Below, one piece after another: positions 245 to 62,945 of a stretch of DNA of 64,000 nucleotides. Under the pieces are notes generated by a model, which made no database searches, was not told the DNA's origin, and saw only the letters and a program-made list of their open reading frames with translations. Each line of letters starts with the position of its first letter. Position 1 is the first letter of the stretch. This DNA is from Loxodes magnus (Eukaryota; Ciliophora; Karyorelictea; Loxodida; Loxodidae), in assembly GCA_946699065.1 (NCBI GenBank), contig CAMPDV010000078.1, positions 310,001 through 374,000 of the forward strand. The letters are read 5' to 3'. The position numbers were made by a program, and so were the translations under genes.

Positions 245-2225
245 ACTAAAAGATAACAACTGTTTATTAAATGAAAAATTAGATAGTACAGAAACAAAAT
301 ACGAACTAGAAAAATAAAAATTGATAAATAACTAAGAATCATCAAAAGCATATTATAAAGCATATATTAATAAAATTAATTAGAAATACAAAAAAATAAA
401 AATAGTTACTAAAATTTGACTTATAATATTATTAGGAAAAGCTATTGAAAAAATAATTAAATATTATAACATTAAAAAATAACCTATTAATAGTTTTAAA
501 GTAGAAGATTAAAATGAACAATTTTCATTAGATAATGTTACTTATAAATAATATCTTTCTATTTTAAAACATAATTAATAACTACTTTAGAAAGCTTTTC
601 AATAAAATTTGAGAGGAATTAGTTTTCATTTTAATCCAAAAAGTAAATAATAGTTCAAGAATAATCAGTATAAACAATCTATGTTAATTCGAAAGAGATA
701 ACTGTTTAAACAGATTTTACAATGAAATGTATTGAATAAAGAAATTAAAATAACAATAGAGTTTTTATAAATTAAGAAGCGTAAACGTAATGGATAAAAT
801 TAGAAATGAGTCAAACATAAACTGAAGAATCTTTATTATATTCAGAACAAGAATATTTAAAATAATAACTTTCATTCTATTAATAGTAATTTTCTGAATA
901 GCAACATATTTGGTAACTACTTTAAGAAGTTTGATAATAAAAAACTAATATTGAATTTGAACTAAACTATATTTTGGATTATAATTAATAACTGAAATCT
1001 TAAAATTAAAAAGTAACTGATAAAGTATAAATATTATAAAACTAACTTGAAATTTTAAACTTTGAATGAGAAAAGAAATATTCTTGGAAATCTGATTTAT
1101 GTAATAATCTTTAATAGAATTTATAACCTAAAGAATTGGATTATTAAAGCATATTAAGTTCATTACATTTATAAAAAAATAAGTATATCCAAAAATTTAA
1201 AGATACTTCCAAATAAACAAAAATACCTTAACTATAGAATAATTACACATTTGTCGAAATTTAATCCAGTGATTAAAAAATTCAAACAGTTACTTTGACT
1301 TTAGATACTGCTACTGGAACAGATCTACTACAATTGGATTAAATTTCCTAGTGCGATTTTATTGATTCTAAATACATAAAATTGTAGAAATAATATGATA
1401 AACTAAATGAGCAACTAATCAATTAAATTAAAGCTTTTGATAAAGTTGCATCAGAAAAATGTACTTTAATGGAAAATCTGAAATAGAGCCAAATTTTTAA
1501 TTAGTAAATTTCTTCCAATTTAACATTTCTATCCATAAAATTCTGTGAATAATCTTTTTAGATTTTCAACAACTCTCATTCATAAAATCTAAAATAAAAT
1601 ACTTAAGAAATTCTTTGGAATAAGATTCTATAAATTAATTAAAGAGAAAATATCCAGATTCATATTTTCCATCTACTAAATAGCATATTAATAAAATGGA
1701 ACAAAATTATTCTTTTATAAAAAATTACAATGTTAATTCAAAATAGCTAAGAGACTTTATATTATCTAACTTTTGAAGAAGAACTAATTTCTAAACTATA
1801 ATTTAAAACAGATACGTTGTACTTGACTAAGAACTTGATAAAGGATAGATTGACAGTCAAGTAGTTAAAATTAATATTGATAAGAGATTATTAAAGATAT
1901 ATAGCAGAAAATATCTCTATGTTATAATTTAATTTTATGACTAAAATAAATAACATTAAAAAAATACGTTCATCTTGAAATCAGTGGACAAAGAAAGAAA
2001 TTTTAATTTATGAACCTGGGTGGAAAGCCGGCTCTTAACTAAATCAACAAGGAAAACAAATTATTTTAGATCAAGATGATCACTAAAAAAGAAGTAGTTT
2101 CAATCAAATTAAGATTGAATATGTCAACATAAATGGATTAGCAAGTAAACTATATAAAGTAGAAGAATTTATAAGAGGAAATAGTATTGACATTTTTCAA
2201 TTAATGAAACTTGGTAAAAACAAGA
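245..2225 (+). pseudogene. LINE N-terminal region, Gln/Asn-rich coiled coil
   Basis: Two adjoining frames read as protein. The first runs from about 245 to 780 and is Lys/Glu/Asn-rich. The second runs from about 782 to 2,225, begins with a heptad-like coiled coil rich in Gln and Leu, and leads without interruption into the start of the endonuclease (a VNINGLASKL motif near 2,122). The two need a frame change near 780-800. In these elements the region upstream of the endonuclease corresponds to an ORF1-like or N-terminal extension with nucleic-acid binding or multimerisation roles, but I see no zinc knuckle or RRM here. No convincing start codon can be chosen. Decayed copy. Confidence 0.55.
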
Positions 2226-3340
2226 TTTCCATCCAATATTAATATAAGGTTATAGGACTTATTACAAAAATTCAGGAAAAGGAGGAGGTGTATGTCTAGT
2301 TATTAAAGAAGAACTCAGTAGTACTGAAGATACTAATATAATTGATGTATCCTAGAATTTATTTATCATAACCAAACTAGATAATATATTTATTACGTCC
2401 AGTTACATGCCAGATAATAGCTAAAATGAGAACATAGAAGACCAAGCATATGACTATATTAATCTGCTACTTAATCAATTCCCAAATAACCCACATATTC
2501 TATTGGGAGATTTCAATGCTCCTCTATAAGATTATGGAGATAATCCTAATAATGACTATGATAATACAAACAGATTCTAGGAATTTCTTATTCAGAAGTA
2601 TCTTGAAATAGTAAATAATATGAACAGCAACACTTGCATTCATAAAGGAACAGATTTTATGTATTGCAATTACTATATTGTAATAAACAATCACCTGAAT
2701 ATTAATCAATTTGAAAACTTCTAGGTTCATTATAACTAACTATTTACTGATCACATACCAATTACGGTAAATTTTCTCTTCAACACAATTCTCTATTAGG
2801 ACATAATTACCTAAAGAAAATATAAAATTAGCAGGCTACAAGACCCTATTGATATATTAAAATATTAAGAATCTTTTTTTGAAACTTACAATGAATTTTT
2901 TTAATCTGATAGGAATAATTTAGAGGATTAATACTCATGTATTAAAGGTAATATATAATATAATGCAGATGTAATATTAAGTTCATTTATTCCAGACCCT
3001 AAATATAATAAACTTACAAAAGACCTCATAAAGAAGTATATTGAAGTTAAAAGAGCTAATCAAGTATATAAAGAAACTCATGCGTAGTTAGGAAGAATTA
3101 ATTAATAAGAAATTCCCTTTTTAAGAACAATTGGTAAGAAGGATATTAATATAGAGATTAAGTAACAAGACTATCTGAATGTTACGAAATAGATATTAAT
3201 AATTAGGAATATAATAGTAGCTTTAATACTTTTACAAAATATATTAAAAGTAAGATTCAACATTAATTTTATGAAGTAACTATTAAAAGACTAAAAAGGA
3301 TGCCCACTGCAAAGTTATTTATAGAATAATTAGAATAATA
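2226..3340 (+). pseudogene. LINE endonuclease domain (exonuclease-endonuclease-phosphatase fold) and linker
   Basis: The frame beginning near 2,222 gives a clear LINE endonuclease. The catalytic motif GDFNA is at 2,506-2,520, preceded by a hydrophobic strand, and the C-terminal TDHIPI motif (the family's SDH-x-P) is at about 2,745-2,763. An N-terminal part (INGLASKL, then KVEEFI) lies in the preceding frame and is separated by a one- or two-base indel at about 2,222. After the endonuclease comes a linker (about 2,815-3,110) that matches the linker of the minus-strand copy. The enzyme normally nicks target DNA to prime reverse transcription. Without a reverse transcriptase in this copy it cannot transpose on its own. 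Confidence 0.85.
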
Positions 3341-3379
3341 ATAATAATTCCCGTAAATTTCTAACCAAAACTAAATAAA

Positions 3380-4210
3380 TAGTATCGAAAAGAAATAATT
3401 AGTATATACAAACTCAGAACCTAAAATTACAACTTTCGCAAGGATCTTTAAGACAGACATTATTTAGTTGAGAATTCCCATTGTATATGTGGAGATTTGA
3501 TTAATTTGAACATATTCTGGAATGCGATTGCTATATAGATATGCGAGAATGGGTAATAGCAAAAATTGGAAAATGCAACATTGGAAAGTTAATAACCTAT
3601 GACCAAAATTATATCAATTAATTTCCAAAAAGCAAATTAGAATACATTGATCTGCAAATTAAAATTTTCCATAGGATGTTACTTAAAAGGAGATTAGAAT
3701 TATTCGAATTAGAAAAAAACTTATAATGAGAAAGTTCTGAGACTAATGGTAAAGAAGCGAAAAAGCAAGATAAAGATGAAGAGAATAATGAAAACAAGGA
3801 AGGAAAAGAAGAACAAGAAGAAAAAGGTGAGCAAGTGGAAGATTAGAATGAATAAACTGATAACGAAGATAATAAAGCTGAAGAAGAAGATGAAGTAGAA
3901 AGTGTTTGAGTTGAAAAGCTTTTAAAAAACATTATAACAACTTTAATTGAAGGAAGTAATTCCAACAATGAAAAGATGTCTCTGACTCTTTTAGTTAAAT
4001 TTAAACTTAAATTTAAGAACAACATGTGTAAGAGAAAGATTTAGATTAGCTATCTATAAGTCATTAAATATTGCACTAGTGTTGGGAATATTAGTTGATT
4101 TTTACCTTTCATTATAATATCAGCAATGATAGCTTCAATTTAGCAGAAATGGTTCTACTTAGTAAAAAGATAAAAATTACACCATTTAATCTTTATTCTC
4201 TAAATCAGAG
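3380..4210 (+). pseudogene. LINE C-terminal region: CCHC-type knuckle, helical tail and acidic insert
   Basis: A frame change near 3,480 joins a CICGD element to a frame reading FEHILECDC. Together these make the Cys-x-Cys ... His ... Cys knuckle that follows the reverse transcriptase in many LINEs. The helical region that follows (DLQIKIFH, then a Leu/Glu/Arg helix) aligns with the minus-strand copy. Copy A has an extra strongly acidic Glu/Asn/Lys tract from about 3,735 to 3,900 that is much shorter in copy B. After it comes a segment shared with copy B (IEGSNS). A TGA at 3,908-3,910 is read as Trp inside the shared region. Confidence 0.65.
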
Positions 4211-11870: not shown

Positions 11871-12773
11871 TCATTTCGAAATCTTCCACTTTCGCACAGT
11901 CTTGTCATACCCTCCCGATACCAACCATCTTTTGTCGACACTCAATGCTATAGAACATATTCCATTTTTATGCCCTTATAAAGTCTTGATACATTTCCCT
12001 GTATCAAAATCCCATATCTCGATTGTTTAATTCCATGATCCAGAAAATATAACACTTGTATCAGCACTTAACTGAATACTTGATACAGTGCTTGTGTGAC
12101 CTTGAAGAGTACGAATACACTAATCAGAAGAGAAGTCCCATATCATAATAGTCTTGTCATCCGAACCCGATATTATATACCTATTATCCTTAGACATTAT
12201 TACCAATAAAACATCGCTTGAATGACTAGAAAGAGTTCGCACAGTTTGGAAACCCCAGATCTTTATGGTTTTATCGTAAGATGCTGATATAATATAGTTA
12301 GAGTCAGGGGAGATTACTACCGAATAAACTACATCAGTACGCTCCATTAAAGTTCTTTGGAGAGTAGCATTGTGGAAATTTAAGATTTTTATGGTTGTAT
12401 CCCAAGATCCTGATACAATATAGTTAGAGTCAGGGGAGATTACAGCCGATAGAATGCCAGAAATATGTCCAGTCAAATTTCTTAGGAGAACACCTGTCTG
12501 GAAATTCCAGATCTTTATCGAATTTTCAGGAGTATCTGAACCTGATACAATTCAATTCAGGTCACTTGATATGGTTACCGATAAAACATCTGAAGTGTGA
12601 CCAGTGACTTAATCTAAAAATATTAATGAAATACCTTTACTTTGTTCATATCTGATCTTATTTATAAGTTTTAAGTAGCATAAGTTGGGTAGAATTTCAT
12701 ATTTAAAATGAAGAAGAGATATTTTCCCTAGGATGTGGTTTCTTGCTCTTAAGAGTTTTCTTAAAAAATACAT
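11871..12773 (-). CDS. WD40-repeat protein, 300 aa
   Basis: One uninterrupted frame runs from ATG (12,773-12,771) to TGA (11,873-11,871), followed two codons later by a second in-frame TGA. Six WD40 repeats of about 42 residues fill residues 70-300, each with a GH near the start, a DSNYIVSGS-type strand and a D-x-T-I-K-I-W end. The N-terminal 65 residues are basic and not repetitive. WD40 propellers are scaffolds for protein complexes, and the partner cannot be told from sequence. The TGA at 12,554-12,552 falls where the other repeats have Tyr, so it is read as Trp and proves the dual use of TGA within one gene. TAA/TAG serve as Gln several times. Six visible blades suggest that a diverged seventh is formed by the N-terminus. 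Confidence 0.9.
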
Positions 12774-15640: not shown

Positions 15641-15799
15641 AAAATGAATGAAGTAATAAGCAAGCTAAAAGGATTAAAACCTTAAACTAGTAAAGTATTA
15701 GACATAAATAAGTGTATTTAATGCTTAGATTATTAAACATTACTTAATTTTACTTTCTAGTTAGCCAATTAAATTTAAAATACCTAATTAATAAATTAA

Positions 15800-16850
15800 A
15801 TGGCTTCTAGCAAGTTAATTATTAAATTATTGGCTGTCCTAAACAGCTCAGCCGCTTTAGTGATGCTTGCAGCAAAAAACAACAGAAGAGCTTTGATGGT
15901 AAAATTTAAGTTTTATGAAAATGCTAAGAATCATAGATTGAATTCCAAGCCTTCGATAAGAAATCCATCAAGACTTATAGTTCTTTCTAAGAGATATAGC
16001 AAAGCTACAATATTTTCCATGATTGCTATTACTGGATTAAAGTCTAGAACTAGATGAACTTGATTAAAAAGTTCGCAGTTAACCATTTCGTTGATTTGAC
16101 TAACGAAGAATTCTGAAAGACTTGCTTAGGATACAAGGATACTTAAGGCATAGAACTACATATATGAATATGTATAAAATGTTGCTGATTCTCTTGATTG
16201 GGAATTGAAGGGAGCTTTAACATCTGTCAAAGATTAAAACCAATGCGAAAGTTGCTATGCTTTCAGTGATGTAGAAAGTTTGGAAGGAGCTTACTTCCAA
16301 AAGACTGGACACAATTGGAATCCTTCTCTGAATAAGAACTAGTTGACTGTTCTAATTCATTTTGCAACCAAGGATACAATGGTGGATGGGTGGACTCTGC
16401 CTTCCAATATTGGCAATAGAACAGTGAAGAGACTGAATCAGATTATCCAAACACTGGTGTAGATGGAAGCTGCAAATATTATTCATCCAAGACTATTACC
16501 GGAATAGCAAACTTTGTAGAAGTTCTCTCTAATGAAGTTGCTTTTAAAAATACAGTAAACGGACATATTATATCAGTTGCAGTTGATGTTTCAAATAGAT
16601 CATTCTATTCTTGAGACATTTATAATGGATAATACTCAGCTTCACCTAACCATGGTGTAAATCTTGTTAGTTATGTACTGAAAATGGGCAAGACTATTTG
16701 AGAATCAATAATTCGTGGGGTACATAATGAGGAGAGAAAGGATATAATAGATTGAAGAGAACCGATTCAAGAGCTTTAGTTGGACAATGTCAAGTTGCCT
16801 CAACTGATGATGCCAATGAGTATGTAGACTAAATATTTGTTTTTTTCAAT
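15800..16850 (+). pseudogene. Cathepsin L-like cysteine protease pseudogene (papain family C1A)
   Basis: A signal peptide (MASSKLIIKLLAVL) is followed, in shifted frames, by the inhibitory propeptide (FAVNHFVDLTNEEF), the catalytic-Cys region (QCESCYAFS, where the family has CGSCWAFS), SEQELVDCS, YNGGW, the catalytic His (NHGVNLVSY) and the Asn region NNSWGTQWGEKGY. The last block proves the code because its Gln is TAA and its second Trp is TGA. At least four frame changes interrupt it. Near 16,310 two extra bases sit inside the segment KTG-QLESFSEQ. Near 16,670 one G is missing before ENGQDY. Further shifts lie near 15,930 and 16,150. The changes fall inside conserved blocks without GT-AG boundaries, so they are indels rather than introns. 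The missing Gly before the active Cys also suggests decay. Confidence 0.85.
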
Positions 16851-26572: not shown

Positions 26573-26881
26573 AATTAATTTCAACTTAAAGAATTTTGGA
26601 CTGAAACTTCTTGCAGTTTAACGACCCCAGCACTCCCTTCATGGGATAACGGGGATATCCTGTTGCTTTCGAAAAGCAGCTGCCAGGGAGCTCCATCGCT
26701 ATGGGCAGCCAGGCTTCAAGCCCCTATCAGGAGTGGATAATCAAGAGGAAGGCGTTCCCTTGCAAAGGCTGACTTTGACCAGGGACTTTCTCAGCGACAG
26801 GAAAGGAACTTGTTCCTAGCCATAAAACCAGAAAGTATGATTCAGAAGGTCAATCTCAGCTCCCACCATCTTTTTAATTAT
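26573..26881 (+). mobile_element. SINE-like element, copy 1 (309 bp)
   Basis: An island of normal base composition in AT-rich sequence. It is flanked by a perfect 15-bp direct repeat, TATTATATTTTTATT, at 26,558-26,572 and 26,882-26,896. The body shares its full length with copies at 38.3 kb (minus) and 56.8 kb (plus), and it is the most diverged of the three. It contains an A-box-like TGGGATAACGGGG (about 26,643) and a B-box-like GGCTTCAAGCCCC (about 26,712), the split internal promoter of Pol III. Together with the target-site duplication this marks it as a SINE moved by LINE machinery. The tail is not poly(A). Confidence 0.8.
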
Positions 26882-26896
26882 TATTATATTTTTATT

Positions 26897-38263: not shown

Positions 38264-38570
38264 ATTTAAAAGATGGTGGAGCTGAGAATGGCCTTCGTGA
38301 CAACACTTTCTGGTTTTATGACTAGGAACAAGTTCCTTTCCTTCGCTGAGAAAGTCCCTGGTCAGAGTCATTTTCTGAAGGGAACACTGTCTTTGAGATT
38401 ATCAGCTCTTGGTAGGGGCTTGAAGCCTGGCTGCTCATAGCGATGGAGCTCCCTAGCAGTTGTGCCTGGAGCACAACAGGATATCCCCGTTATTCTATAA
38501 AAAGAGAGCGTCGGGTCGTGCAATCGGAAAGGAGTTTCCGGTCCAAAAACTTTTTTAGTTGAAATTAATT
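38264..38570 (-). mobile_element. SINE-like element, copy 2, minus orientation
   Basis: This is the reverse complement of the copy at 56,785-57,098, with only scattered differences over about 307 bp, so the two are recent relatives. The A-box-like and B-box-like segments are present. I could not find a target-site duplication: the left flank (TTTGAATG) and right flank (AAAGAACA) do not match, which points to later rearrangement or insertion with deletion. It lies directly upstream of the gene at 37,614-38,207. Confidence 0.8.
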
Positions 38571-39654
38571 AAAGAACATTTTAATAACTAGTTTCTAGCA
38601 TAAATCAAGGAAACTATTATTTAGTAAGTTAGAATTTATTTTAAATTAATAGCTATTTAATTCCTTTTGTATTTTTACAATCCCAATTTTAAAGCATTTA
38701 AATTTAAAGATTTTATTTGCTTCTGTATTTTTATAATATTAATTTGCTTATAGATATATAAAATAAAAGTTAAGCAATAGAGATGTTTATAATTTTAGCC
38801 TATTAGAAAAAACTTATAAGGGCAAATGAATTCATCTACTGTGAGATTATTGCATTTATAGAATACTTCTATTAAGATATTTACCCTTAAATAAATTATT
38901 TGGCCTCAAAAATTCCACTGAAAAAGTAGCCTATTTATATCTGGATATAACTGCAATTTTTATACAATTTAGTTTAAAGTTGAAATTTAGCTATTTAAGA
39001 GATATAAGTAAACTAAAAAGATTTTAAACAGTTATACAATTTTTCGTTGAAAGCCTAATATTTTTTTCCGCAAAAAATAACGCAAATTATAACAAGGCTC
39101 AGATAGTTTCCATCACTACTAGATATATACTAGATTTTTATTCTAGTTATAACCATTTTCAATCTAGAATGAATTTAGATATTTTAGTATTAAAGCAATA
39201 AACATTAAAATAGAAAAAGGCATTAAAGAATAATAACTTTTACTATAAAAGATAGGATAGCTTATTTTACAGTATCCCCTTCAAAGTATTTTAGCTTTTT
39301 TTATTTAGATTTAAATTTAGAAGGAGGTATTATGTTAATTACGCTTCTTGCTTCTGACTTAATTTATTTTGAAAAAAGTAAATATTTTAAACTGCTATTA
39401 ATACATGCTTATACGAGAACATCAACATCTTAGGCTAATTAATAAAATAATCCTTATCTAACTTCCTTTTGAAGTTCTATTTTTGTCAAACTTAAAAAGC
39501 TTATCCAAGCTATTTCAAAATTTAGTTTTTTAGTTCTAAGATTAAGATTTTTTGATTTTGTTTAATAGATTGAATAAATAGACTTGCACTCATAGTGTTT
39601 AATATCTGAATATTATTTAAATTTTGTTTGCAAGGGATAGATATATTTAAAAAT
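38571..39654. other. Intergenic region upstream of the receptor gene
   Basis: AT-rich. No convincing coding frame or repeat. It should contain the promoter of the receptor gene. Confidence 0.45.
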
Positions 39655-56784: not shown

Positions 56785-57098
56785 TTATTAATTAATTTCA
56801 ACTAAAAAAGTTTATGGACCGGAAACTCCTTTCCGATTGCACGACCCGACGCTCTCTTTTTATGGAATAACGGGGATATCCTGTTGTGCTCCAGGCACAG
56901 CTGCTAGGGAGCTCCATCGCTATGAGTAGCCAGGCTTCAAGCCCCTACCAAGAGCGGATAATCTCAAAGACAGTGTTCCCTTCAGAAAATGACTTTGACC
57001 AGGGACTTTCTCAACGACAGGAAAGGAACTTGTTCCTAACCATAAAACCAGAAAGTGTTGTCACGAAGTTCATTCTCAGCTCCCACCATCTTTTCAAT
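56785..57098 (+). mobile_element. SINE-like element, copy 3 (314 bp) with perfect target-site duplication
   Basis: It is flanked by a perfect 19-bp repeat, TATTTTGATATACTTTATA, at 56,766-56,784 and 57,099-57,117. The body begins TTATTAATTAATTTCAACT and ends CCACCATCTTTTCAAT. An A-box-like TGGAATAACGG (56,863-56,873) and a B-box-like GGCTTCAAGCCCC (56,933-56,945) suggest Pol III transcription in the plus direction. The long target-site duplication and lack of terminal inverted repeats argue for LINE-driven retroposition rather than a DNA transposon. A plus-strand ORF of 78 codons inside it is not conserved in copy 1. Copy 2 is nearly identical. Confidence 0.85.
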
Positions 57099-57117
57099 TA
57101 TTTTGATATACTTTATA

Positions 57118-59098: not shown

Positions 59099-61143
59099 AT
59101 GTCCTAGGTTGTTTAATGTCAATCTTGTAACGGAGATTTCGACGATTAGGAAAAGCTTCCCATGTTGTTGTCATGTGAACACAACATATGTTATCTATGT
59201 GCGCATGATCAGTATCTAAAAGCCAAAAGTATAAAATGTGCAAATTGTCAGCAAGTTCATAAGATTCATCCTTCAAATTTGGTAAAAGACAGTTAGTTAC
59301 TTAAGTATCTTGAGTAAAAGAGTATCATGGAGAGTATATCATTGTTGGAGAATCAATCACTGAGATTGCGTTAAGCTTAGACTTAATTGTCTAAGGTCTA
59401 AATTACTTTCATCTAGTAGTTGATTAGGCACGTGAGTAGTTACGTTTTAAAGGGCAATATTGGCTTATAAAGGTAGTTGTTTGACTAGGATCGATAAATT
59501 TAGGAGTAGTTAAGGTTCTTAAAAATCTAGAGGTAAGTAATATCTATTAGTAATAATTATTAGTAATAGCCATTAGAATTACTAAGGTTAGGATATTTCT
59601 AAGTATGAGTCTAAGGTGTTGAGATTGTTAGATGAGGTTTAGAGGATCATCGATGTGAGGGTATCGGTTAATGTTTTTGAGGATTTGGACAATTATAAGT
59701 TGAGTCAAGAGTAAATGGTTAAGGAAAATGATTATTTGAGGAGTGAGATATAGAAGTTGAATGATTAAGTCTAGAATCAGTAATAATAGATGACTTAGTT
59801 ATAAGGTTAGTTAATCTAGTTCTAATAAGTAACGCCAGTAGTGTAGTTTAATTAGCCAATTTCTCAACTTTAGAATATTCCTAAGTAGGCAAAGATATAG
59901 GATATCAGTATAACCATCGTATCGCCGAATAATAAGACCTTAAAGCTCTAGGTCAAATAAGAAACTACGATAGAGTAGATAAAAGAATAAATCGAAAAAT
60001 AAACTGAGTTATACTCATGGTCTCTCGACATCTTTAAGATCAATACTAAACTGGAGGATGATTAATCAGTATCGAGTTTATAAATTGTCGATGGGGAATA
60101 GCTTCAAATGAAGTTAAGTAAGTTTAAAAGTTAAATGTAATATTAGATGGTAAGTATTTTAATATTCTTTAAACATATAGTCTGTAAGTATTTTAATATT
60201 CTTTAAACATATAGAATGTAAGTATTTTAATATTCTTTAAACATATAGATAGTAAGTATTTTAATATTCTTTAAATATATAGGAAGTAAATATTTTAATA
60301 TTCTTTAAACATATAGTTGGTAAGTATTTTAATATTCTATAAACATATAGTTAGTAAGTATTTTAATATTCTTTAAACATATAGGGAGTAAGTATTTTAA
60401 TATTCTTTAAACATATAGGGAGTAAGTATTTTAATATTCTTTAAACATATAGTCTGTAAGTATTTTAATATTCTTTAAACATATAGTGGGTAAGTATTAT
60501 AATATTCTTTAAACATATAGGATGTAAGTATTTTAATATTCTTTAAACATATAGTTGGTAAGTATTTTAATATTCTTTAAACATATAGGGAGTAAGTATT
60601 TTAATATTCTTTAAACATATAGAAGGTAAGTATTTTAATATTCTTTAAACATATAGTATGTAAGTATTATAATATTCTTTAAACATATAGATGGTAAGTA
60701 TTTTAATATTCTATAAACATATAGTTAGTAAGTATTTTAATATTCTTTAAACATATAGATGGTAAATATTTTAATATTCTTTAAACATATAGTTAGTAAG
60801 TATTATAATATTCTTTAAACATATAGAGAGTAAGTATTTTAATATTCTTTAAACATATAGATGGTAAGTATTTTAATATTCTTTAAACATATAGAGAGTA
60901 AGTATTTTAATATTCCAAATAGAGAGTATTTATTAATATTGATAGTATGTAAGGTGTATTTATAGTTTTTTTTTCTGTTTTTTAGATCGTAGGTTTAGAA
61001 TAATCAAAATAGGAGGTGAGTTATTCATTATTATAAATAGAATGTATGTTAGTTTAAGGTTATTATAAAGGGGGTGAGTTAGTGTTTTAATGAGTTTAAA
61101 ATAGGACTCTATGAATCGAGTGGCTGTGAAATATTCTGAGTGA
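59099..61143 (+). CDS. RING finger / coiled-coil / ubiquitin-like protein with 28 single-codon exons (380 aa predicted)
   Basis: ATG 59,099 starts a C3HC4 RING with Cys7, 10, 26, His28, Cys31, 34, 47 and 50. A Gln-rich coiled coil follows, then a ubiquitin-like fold (59,904-60,116; ISITIVSPNNKTLKLQV ... EQIKEQI ... GEQLQMKL). Exon 1 is 59,099-59,532. A GTAAGT intron of 31 nt (or 37 nt, with the next AG) follows, and exon 2 (59,564-60,149) ends in phase 0. The coding sequence then continues through 28 exons of three bases each, separated by 29 GT-AG introns, to the last exon 61,105-61,143 (DSMNRVAVKYSE, then TGA). Spliced length is 1,140 coding bases plus stop. No TGA is used as Trp. RING plus a ubiquitin-like domain suggests an E3 ubiquitin ligase. 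The two leading domains are solid. The tail rests on splicing that is inferred, not shown. Confidence 0.8.
59533..59563 (+). other. Intron 1 of the RING gene, 31 nt
   Basis: It begins with GTAAGT and ends TTATTAG. It is needed to pass from frame 2 to frame 0 between the RING/coiled-coil exon and the ubiquitin-like exon. Using the next AG at 59,569 gives 37 nt and the same frame, so this is a tandem acceptor. It has the same length and 5' splice site as the 31-nt units of the array downstream, but a different interior. Confidence 0.75.
60150..60897 (+). repeat. Tandem array of 22 near-identical 31-nt introns, each followed by a variable 3-nt exon
   Basis: The period is exactly 34 bp over 748 bp. 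Each 31-nt part begins GTAAGTATTT (twice GTAAAT) and ends in CATATAG (once TATATAG). Only about eight single-base variants occur in 22 units. The three bases that follow each ATAG differ from unit to unit (TCT, AAT, ATA, GAA, TTG, TTA and so on). The invariant part has the hallmarks of an intron (GTAAGT donor, AG acceptor, length equal to intron 1 of the same gene), and the array starts at a codon boundary. Triplets are about twice as rich in G+C as the 31-mers (32% against 16% by my count). Confidence 0.95.
60898..61104 (+). other. Seven further introns, mostly unrelated, still separated by exactly 3-nt exons
   Basis: Introns at 60,898-60,922 (25 nt), 60,926-60,945 (20), 60,949-60,985 (37), 60,989-61,012 (24), 61,016-61,040 (25), 61,044-61,070 (27) and 61,074-61,104 (31). 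Donors are GTAAGT, GTATTT, GTAAGG, GTAGGT, GTGAGT, GTATGT and GTGAGT. All end in AG. The exons between them are AGA, TAT, ATC, GAG, AAT and GGG. The first still shares its first 18 bases with the 31-mer, and the others do not resemble it or each other. The exact three-base spacing therefore persists without sequence repetition. Confidence 0.8.
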
Positions 61144-62004: not shown

Positions 62005-62945
62005 ATTTGTGAAAATTTTAATTTTGTTTTTTTGCTCAGCGTTTTCCACTATAGGGAAATTTTGGGACGGAATAAACTTGCGAGATTTGGGATAAAAGAT
62101 TTCTAAATGGAATATGGAAAGGTGAAAAGGGAACTAAGGGGAGTAAGTAATGTTAAAATTTTCGAAGTGAAAATATTGAATAAGGAAAGAATAAAATTTA
62201 TAATAGAATTTTTGAAAAAATTTAATTTTTTTAAAGAGAAAAGCTATAAAAGTGGGGAAAATTTTGAATTTTGGAAATGGAATAAAAAAATTTATAAAAA
62301 TAGAAGGTTTGGAAACAGTAGTTAAAAAGCGAAATAGTTGTTGAAAAAGTAAAAATAGATTTTGAAGAGGTTCAAAACGCGAAAATTTTAATTTTGTTTT
62401 TTTGCTCAGCGTTTTACACTACAGGAAAATTTTCGGACGGAACAAAATTTTTTTTGGAATTTTAAAAGAAGGATAAAATTTTTAGTAATCAATTTTTTTT
62501 TTATTTTATAATTTTTTTAAACTATGAATTGGAAAAATTCAAAAAGTAAAAATAATTAATTATTAATTAAATTTCTTTTTTATCTAATTTGAATAAAATA
62601 ATTTTTTATAATTTTAGTGGAGGTGAGGCTAAGAAAGTTTTAATCTATATCAGTTAATTTTTGTTTAACTGATAAAATCGATTTAAGATGTAAAAATTTA
62701 ATTTTTGTTTTTCGCTCTGAATTTTATACTATAGAAGATTTTTTGGACGGAACAAAAATTTTAGAAATTTTGAATCAAGTTTTTAAGTCTAAAGTTATTC
62801 TTATTAAAGTAAATCATTTAGAATTTTTTTAGATAATGCACAATATAGAGATCAGGAATATTAAAAAATATTTTTATAATTAAATTTTTGTTTTTTTATT
62901 TTAGATTTACTACAGGAACTTTTAAAGATAGACTAATATTTTAAT
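62005..62945 (+). repeat. Cluster of three to four copies of a dispersed repeat
   Basis: Copies at about 62,008-62,075, 62,380-62,448 and 62,695-62,762, with a faint fourth near 62,885-62,935. Each has AAATTTTAATTTTTGTTTTT, then GCTCAGCGTTTT or CGCTCTGAATTTT, then ACTATAG, a T run, and GGACGGAA. The cores are more conserved than the 300 bp between them. Two inverted copies lie at 10.6 and 11.1 kb. The 72-codon ORF at 62,107 lies between copies and is not supported as a gene. Confidence 0.75.

Follow-up and report, generated by a model that had tools for sequence, protein, structure and literature searches.

Arrays of probable three-base exons in a RING/ubiquitin-like gene family of the ciliate Loxodes magnus

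The array gene and other features of the window

The 64-kb stretch of Loxodes magnus (Karyorelictea) DNA analyzed here (the window; bases 310001-374000 of its contig) carries on its forward strand a gene composed of two exons with RING-like and ubiquitin-like domains, an array of short intron-like units, and a short last exon (Table 1). Exon 1 matched the Pfam model zf-RING_5 at E = 9.8e-4, below the Pfam cut-off, and four RING models matched this exon at E = 0.00098-0.076, each short of its curated cut-off. The ubiquitin-like domain of exon 2 scored slightly short of cut-off with two Pfam models, Rad60-SLD at E = 4.8e-5 and ubiquitin at E = 8.8e-4, and was matched by 31 distinct PDB sequences at E <= 0.1, of which the best were tandem ubiquitins (6e-12), while single copies were found from 0.0066. 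Its sequence similarity to ubiquitin extended across the fold. A homology search of the conceptual protein gave 1880 candidates, none at E <= 0.001, and only tRNAs were reported by Rfam at the gathering threshold.

Table 1. Features of the array gene in the window. Lengths are in nucleotides.
Feature	Position	Strand	Remarks
Exon 1	59099..59532	+	RING-like zinc finger, then coiled-coil-like stretch (latter by eye); TAA/TAG = Gln
Intron 1	59533..59569	+	GTAAGT...TAATAG, 37 nt; alternative 31-nt version ends at 59563; both frame-compatible GT..AG candidates
Exon 2	59570..60117	+	Coiled-coil-like (by eye) and ubiquitin-like domain; runs to 60149 if next unit is unspliced
Possible extra intron	60118..60146	+	GTAAGTTTAAAAGTTAAATGTAATATTAG, 29 nt; if spliced, whole array in phase 1; otherwise codes SKFKSQMQYQ
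Triplet ATG	60147..60149	+	Would be the first 3-nt exon upon splicing of 60118-60146
22 units of near-identical 31-nt intron and variable triplet	60150..60897	+	Triplets: TCT AAT ATA GAA TTG TTA GGA GGA TCT TGG GAT TTG GGA AAG TAT ATG TTA ATG TTA AGA ATG AGA
25-nt intron variant and triplet AGA	60898..60925	+	Pattern parse
Tail intron, 20 nt, and conserved triplet TAT	60926..60948	+	
Tail intron, 37 nt, and triplet ATC	60949..60988	+	ATG or ATT in some relatives
Tail intron, 24 nt, and triplet GAG	60989..61015	+	GAA, GTG, GCG, GCT, AAG or TAG in relatives
Tail intron, 25 nt, and triplet AAT	61016..61043	+	
Tail intron, 27 nt, and conserved triplet GGG	61044..61073	+	
Last intron, 31 nt	61074..61104	+	
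Last exon	61105..61143	+	Phase 0 reads DSMNRVAVKYSE, stop TGA at 61141-61143
Last exon in phase 1	from 61105	+	...GLYESSGCEIF, stop TGA at 61136-61138

A pattern parse of positions 60150-61104 (+) yielded 29 GT..AG intron-like units with 28 stretches of exactly 3 nt between them, and thus reproduced the alternation that had been noticed in a preliminary description of this DNA. The count given there, 28 triplets and 29 introns, holds for this interval, but another unit, built alike, is found directly 5' of it (60118-60149). If this unit is spliced, the gene counts 30 introns with 29 triplets, and its array is read in another phase. The exact consensus was found in 14 of the first 22 array units, whereas the last seven introns are mostly unlike the 31-nt consensus. 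When a looser pattern was applied to the whole window, the longest run of intron plus triplet was 29 on the + strand, including the unit at 60118, and 1 on the - strand; when the first 59 kb of the window was shuffled in triplet blocks, 20 repeats gave no run above 2.

Several other features were observed in the window. A papain-family gene (15790-16830, +), with its I29 propeptide split over three frames and TGA where Trp is expected, may be a frameshifted copy, contain unannotated introns, or be decaying. A WD40-repeat gene with six matched repeats (11872-12640, -) contains one in-frame TGA possibly read as Trp, and an endonuclease-reverse transcriptase domain (PF14529, E = 1.1e-8; 2002-4000, +) perhaps belongs to a non-LTR element. 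A dispersed repeat of about 250-300 nt was present at 26630-26889, 38278-38572, and 56788-57109, in both orientations and with copies 79-97% alike; its GC content reaches about 50% in stretches, compared to about 22% for the window. In the 3' flank of the array gene, a 69-nt repeat occurs three times at 62011-62759, with its copies 310-370 nt apart, in a stretch of strong G-over-C skew.

Related arrays in the genome

Genome searches were performed in the L. magnus assembly of 705,730,643 bp. The array as query gave at least 115 matches (39 of 298 candidates scored). The exact 31-mer intron was found in 759 copies genome-wide (reversed control, 0), of which 755 lay within fetched loci of this single RING/ubiquitin-like family, and the conserved tail motif was found at 44 genomic places with at most one mismatch (control, 0). 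Thirty-eight loci were collected first and seven more afterwards. Thirty-six of 39 arrays, including that of the window, were parsed; L010 and L013 were missed by the first parser and L045 lacked anchors, and all three were read by a second parser. In the 36 parsed loci, the introns were almost constant and the triplets were different, except between near-duplicate loci (L021-L023; L018 with L032-L034; L020 with L036). The first two of these groups may each be alternative assemblies of one locus. Examples of variable tails from different loci, in a phase-0 reading, are KGFYGRYGYGYHYWW, NHMMSSSMMKMK, and HSSMQNNNMQNNN. The array of L010 has 19 units, with introns of 26-32 nt and exons all of 3 nt, that of L013 has 116 units (second parser), and the longest array fetched contains about 323 triplets over 11.1 kb, in the gene at C78:422987-434201.

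A search of the genome with the exon-1 protein gave 2437 candidates, of which at least 150 were scored as matches, and the family size of at least 150 genes is counted from these matches. Among those listed, 42 were at >=66% identity and 108 at 51-59%. Arrays were present past the ubiquitin-like domain in all 10 distant members picked by hand from the 108, and in several of them the introns have a sequence unrelated to that of the window, such as GTAAGTTAAAGTTTAAGGTGAAAATGAAG in L057, GTAAGTGAAATTTAAGGGTGAAACTTGAAG in L058, and GTAAGTTGATTGTTAGATTTAAAAAAAG in L059. Of 287 exons predicted in these 10 members, 271 were of 3 nt, nine of 0 nt, and seven of 6 nt, with a parser that penalized all lengths other than 3 equally and therefore favored 3, but not 0 or 6 over 1, 2, 4, or 5. 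Intron lengths ranged from 16 to 37 nt, with two 16-nt and a few other introns being the last ones clipped at the end of the fetched stretch or of the chain (L056, L058, L061, and L063). The nine zero-length exons, in which AG is directly followed by GT, were observed in L056, L057, L058, L061, L062, L064, and L065 and could be recursive splice sites. In a scan of 648,024 bases on both strands, the sole other chain was the leader of family member L009.

Across 32 family copies, dN/dS was 0.44 for exon 1 and 0.56 for exon 2, and exon 1 is under purifying selection. Six near-duplicates, five loci without an anchor, and L010, L026, and L048, whose upstream sequences were too different, were left aside in this alignment. 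In these last three loci, the upstream 1.1 kb is about 60% identical to the window gene, yet array and tail are alike, which may point to a domain exchange. In L049, L050, and L051, the 3' end of the array is joined to other upstream sequence, with Kelch-like motifs (by eye) in two frames; the junction, at about base 2404 in the oriented L051, suggests truncated or fused copies. In L045, units without a donor GT were found together with two 7-nt exons. Given the lost donors and 7-nt exons of L045 and the truncation of L049-L051, some of the loci are decaying.

Evidence for probable splicing of the arrays

In the window subfamily, 725 of 728 gaps between introns measured 3 nt, whereas the introns varied from 20 to 33 nt, with one of 48 nt (near-duplicate loci included). 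Exon lengths were thus multiples of 3, with the exception of 3 of the 728 gaps and of the two 7-nt exons in L045. The splice dinucleotides were also conserved at the units, GT in 943 of 948 and AG in 887 of 890 intron copies recognized by their core sequence and not by their ends, about half of these copies being from two giant arrays. In a genetic code where TGA can be Trp, splicing cannot be judged by whether a frame is open, and an array could in principle be retained and translated as a repeat protein, with the three stop codons read as sense and all frames open. A repeat protein of this kind would give no reason for the conservation of GT and AG at nearly every unit. Moreover, the total intron length modulo 3 was split 19, 11, and 6 among 36 arrays, so that retention would leave the exon after the array in a frame that differs between arrays. 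Translation of the unspliced array therefore seems highly improbable.

The end of the array is informative in another way. Between the window, L056, and L057, which belong to three subfamilies, the six tail triplets were 78-89% identical in order, compared to 0.38-0.40 when permuted, while the tail introns were 60% identical at matched and 53-58% at mismatched positions. Furthermore, homogenized introns of four different sequences (window type, L057, L058, and L059) have the same 3-nt spacing. Both observations, as well as the constancy of exon length in the face of variable intron length, are difficult to reconcile with an ordinary minisatellite, located in an intron or a 3' UTR, that would be removed as a single long intron or remain untranslated and in which GT and AG would be carried along by tandem duplication. 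The array is indeed tandem, with a period of 34, two arrays have grown to 116 and about 323 low-complexity units, as satellites do, and the published L. magnus genome is rich in tandem repeats according to its description (PMC11441545). The changes in the arrays were not, as for a plain minisatellite, indifferent to exon length and splice sites, and 34 triplet types were counted (see below) against about 54 expected with independent positions. We thus regard a minisatellite as unlikely.

The length of the array introns counts against the spliced reading. L. magnus introns have a mean length of 19.3 nt and 93% of them do not exceed 25 nt, as given in PMC11441545. A length of 31 nt, found for 635 of 727 gap-parsed introns, falls in the upper tail of the published L. 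magnus distribution, and the array introns are long for this species. Nevertheless, the maintenance of the 3-nt exon length and of GT and AG, tail triplets that outlast their introns, variable totals modulo 3, and the dN/dS values of exons 1 and 2 together make it likely, as judged from sequence, that the array is truly spliced. The earlier proposal that a RING/ubiquitin-like gene contains 3-nt exons set between short introns is supported by 725 of 728 gaps, by 287 of 287 exons of 0, 3, or 6 nt in distant members, and by tail triplets conserved without conservation of their introns.

Reading phase and triplet repertoire

The reading phase depends on the unit at 60118-60146: left unspliced, it places the array in phase 0, and its splicing leads to phase 1 and a different peptide. 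Peptides predicted for the window gene would match SNIELLGGSWDLGK in phase 0 and parts of IVRRILGFGKVYVNVK in phase 1, and with splicing of the unit the peptide would read NVQYRIVRRILGFGKVYVNVKNEKIYREWGLYESSGCEIF. The unit is highly conserved in family copies. Its counterpart measures 33 nt in the window, 45 nt in L058 and L059, 42 nt in L062, and 39 nt in L064, multiples of 3 that suit a coding sequence. Lengths of 38 nt in L056 and 32 nt in L045, a decaying locus, fit an intron instead. The comparison covers loci for which the beginning of the unit had been fetched, unlike L060, L061, L063, and L065, and in which the motif used was matched, unlike L010.

In L. magnus, TGA can stand for either Trp or a stop (NCBI table 27; PMC11441545). 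Because TGA, TAA, and TAG can each be read as sense, the absence of stops was rejected as an argument for phase 0. The window array does meet a TGA in one of its three readings, that with intron phase 2. The preliminary description had placed all junctions in phase 0, with one codon per triplet. This agrees with the class-A last exons (21, of which 11 distinct; computed without L045), where pN/pS was lowest in phase 0 (0.39), compared to 0.74 for phase 2 and 4.78 for phase 1, but not with the tail compared across several subfamilies (13 loci), which slightly favors phase 1 (0.47-0.48, versus 0.50-0.75 for phase 0 and 0.96-1.18 for phase 2). A TGA was present in phase 1 in 13 of the 14 types of last exon, and equally in phase 0 (13 of 14), and thus does not decide between them. 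Codon usage did not separate the phases either: the mean log P per codon was -3.998 for phase 0, -3.973 for intron phase 1, and -4.181 for intron phase 2, and a shuffled triplet order was at least as good in 267 of 300 cases (intron phase 2, offset 1) and 218 of 300 cases (intron phase 1, offset 2). As the evidence on phase is conflicting, we use the term three-base exons instead of single-codon exons, and the equation of one triplet with one codon may be wrong.

The repertoire of triplets is restricted. Only 34 of the 64 types occurred among 441 variable triplets from 29 arrays (seven near-duplicates omitted), whereas about 54 were expected when bases were shuffled independently by position, with a minimum of 49 in 500 shuffles (383 triplets, 25 arrays). 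With amino-acid names that presuppose phase 0, Ser was TCT in 27 of 27 cases, Lys AAG in 35 of 36, and Gln CAA in 15 of 17, and Val was absent from the 441 triplets. The 577 codons of two genes were less biased than the triplets, Phe being the same in both, in comparisons that ignore shared ancestry. A rule of one codon per amino acid is valid only under phase 0, and otherwise the triplets are merely a restricted set. Other subfamilies use partly different triplets, such as CGA, AAA, and AAC.

Turnover of array units

Between loci, the 31-mers were 98.8% identical, while triplets shared only 30.6% of their bases, and two triplets paired at random were the same in 4.8% of cases. Such a disparity could be created by targeted hypermutation of the triplets, or by very strong positive selection on point mutations. 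The two giant arrays speak against this explanation. Their 429 scored introns (nine irregular segments set aside) contained 62 substitutions spread over 12 listed variant sequences, a large part of the substitutions being inherited copies, and their triplets were limited to seven recurring types; AGA and TGA were found once each in L013 and were common in the other array, and the leader contained one TTA triplet. About six triplet changes are expected at the intron rate and hundreds at a hundredfold rate. The confinement to seven types makes strong ongoing hypermutation unlikely and is compatible with an ordinary rate. In addition, three of the four kinds of triplet mismatch in the closest group alter two or three bases together (TTC/AGA, CAT/GGT, and ATG/TAT, as opposed to GGA/GGT with one base). 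Altogether, we find it improbable that hypermutation or selection on point mutations generated the diversity.

The comparison of loci points to changes by whole units. For 10 pairs with exon divergence below 1%, array unit similarity was 0.80, compared to 0.48 for shuffled arrays, and for 395 pairs with exon divergence of at least 2%, it was 0.18-0.31, compared to 0.18-0.28. Close pairs, such as L031/L042 and L012/L014, differed mainly by gains or losses of whole units or blocks. In a test that counted related arrays as independent, the 3' half of the intron showed a link to the triplet after it (0 of 500 shuffles) but none to the triplet before it (216 of 500), and the 5' half was linked to both neighboring triplets (0 of 500 each). 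This linkage suggests that the units travel as cassettes.

The joint duplication of units and triplets is also at odds with an introner-like process, in which one intron would have been copied between all the triplets of a pre-existing variable tail. Such a process would fit introns that are identical within a subfamily, flank every triplet, and differ in sequence between subfamilies. We know of no mechanism for insertion at exactly every third base. In contrast to what is expected of introners, copies were not dispersed over many unrelated genes, and with 755 of the 759 exact copies in one family, this intron is not spreading genome-wide. An introner-like origin thus appears doubtful. The constant introns and divergent triplets are best reconciled, we infer, by old triplet lineages under diversifying selection together with intron recombination that homogenizes the introns.

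Proposed explanation and implications

We consider it quite probable that this RING/ubiquitin-like family of L. magnus carries a hypervariable tail produced from spliced 3-nt exons, which turns over by whole units via recombination between introns. Each tiny intron would be recognized by intron definition, so that the spliceosome would join runs of three-base exons. Whatever the length of its intron, each unit would add exactly 3 nt to the mRNA, and its gain, loss, or reordering would therefore leave the frame intact. The near-identical introns would provide a homologous substrate for recombination through which whole units and blocks turn over; the turnover pattern itself is observed, and recombination is its presumed cause. 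Introns would be homogenized within a subfamily, while old, differing triplets would persist, presumably because selection favors diversity of the peptide. The variable tail could, as a guess, be the recognition or interaction part of a putative E3-ligase-like protein.

A bolder and less probable reading is that the RING/ubiquitin-like proteins of Loxodes form a large repertoire of receptors or ligases with three-base-exon tails, edited unit by unit through recombination and diversified by combinatorial alternative splicing. Since every donor could be joined in frame to every acceptor farther along, each array could yield combinatorial sets of peptides by alternative splicing. If so, this would be a recognition repertoire in a unicellular organism, with a logic comparable to that of immune-receptor diversity. 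If the arrays are spliced, they are the longest runs of three-base exons known to us, and they would test the minimal exon size under intron-only recognition, the splicing of introns 3 nt apart, and the order of splicing. The usual pattern is reversed here, with introns almost frozen and exons saturated with change. It becomes possible to test in what way recombination and selection can uncouple a 3-base exon from the adjoining 31-base intron, and whether a protist uses arrays of three-base exons to diversify recognition proteins.

Comparison with known systems

A literature search, mostly at the level of abstracts of openly available papers, found isolated 3-nt exons, micro-exon genes, introners, and segment switching in toxin genes, but no run of three-base exons. 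Micro-exon genes (MEGs) have consecutive very short exons with lengths that are multiples of 3 nt. The Loxodes arrays resemble the MEGs of schistosomes in the many consecutive very short exons, in lengths that are multiples of 3 nt, and in fast-evolving predicted products. MEG exons are longer than 3 nt and their introns are ordinary, whereas the putative Loxodes exons are nearly all of 3 nt, with short and homogenized introns, in runs of up to hundreds. The schistosome MEGs are the subject of PMC4350168, and the term microexon is absent from the main text of the L. magnus paper (PMC11441545).

Introner elements likewise comprise many near-identical introns per genome, but the Loxodes introns are confined to arrays in one gene family. 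ASSET, described for snake venom toxin genes, switches exon segments and involves, to our knowledge, no tandem array of three-base exons. Ultra-short ciliate introns separate normal exons. Those of Loxodes, Stentor, Blepharisma, and Paramecium belong to the same group of organisms and the same range of intron sizes as the arrays, with a mean of 19.3 nt in Loxodes (PMC11441545). Isolated 3-nt exons, reported for homothorax of Drosophila and PICALM of the dog, have the same size of three bases and are, as far as reported, single exons, not runs. Finally, TALE repeats consist of a near-constant unit with a short hypervariable position; their constant part is protein, whereas the constant part of the Loxodes arrays is intron.
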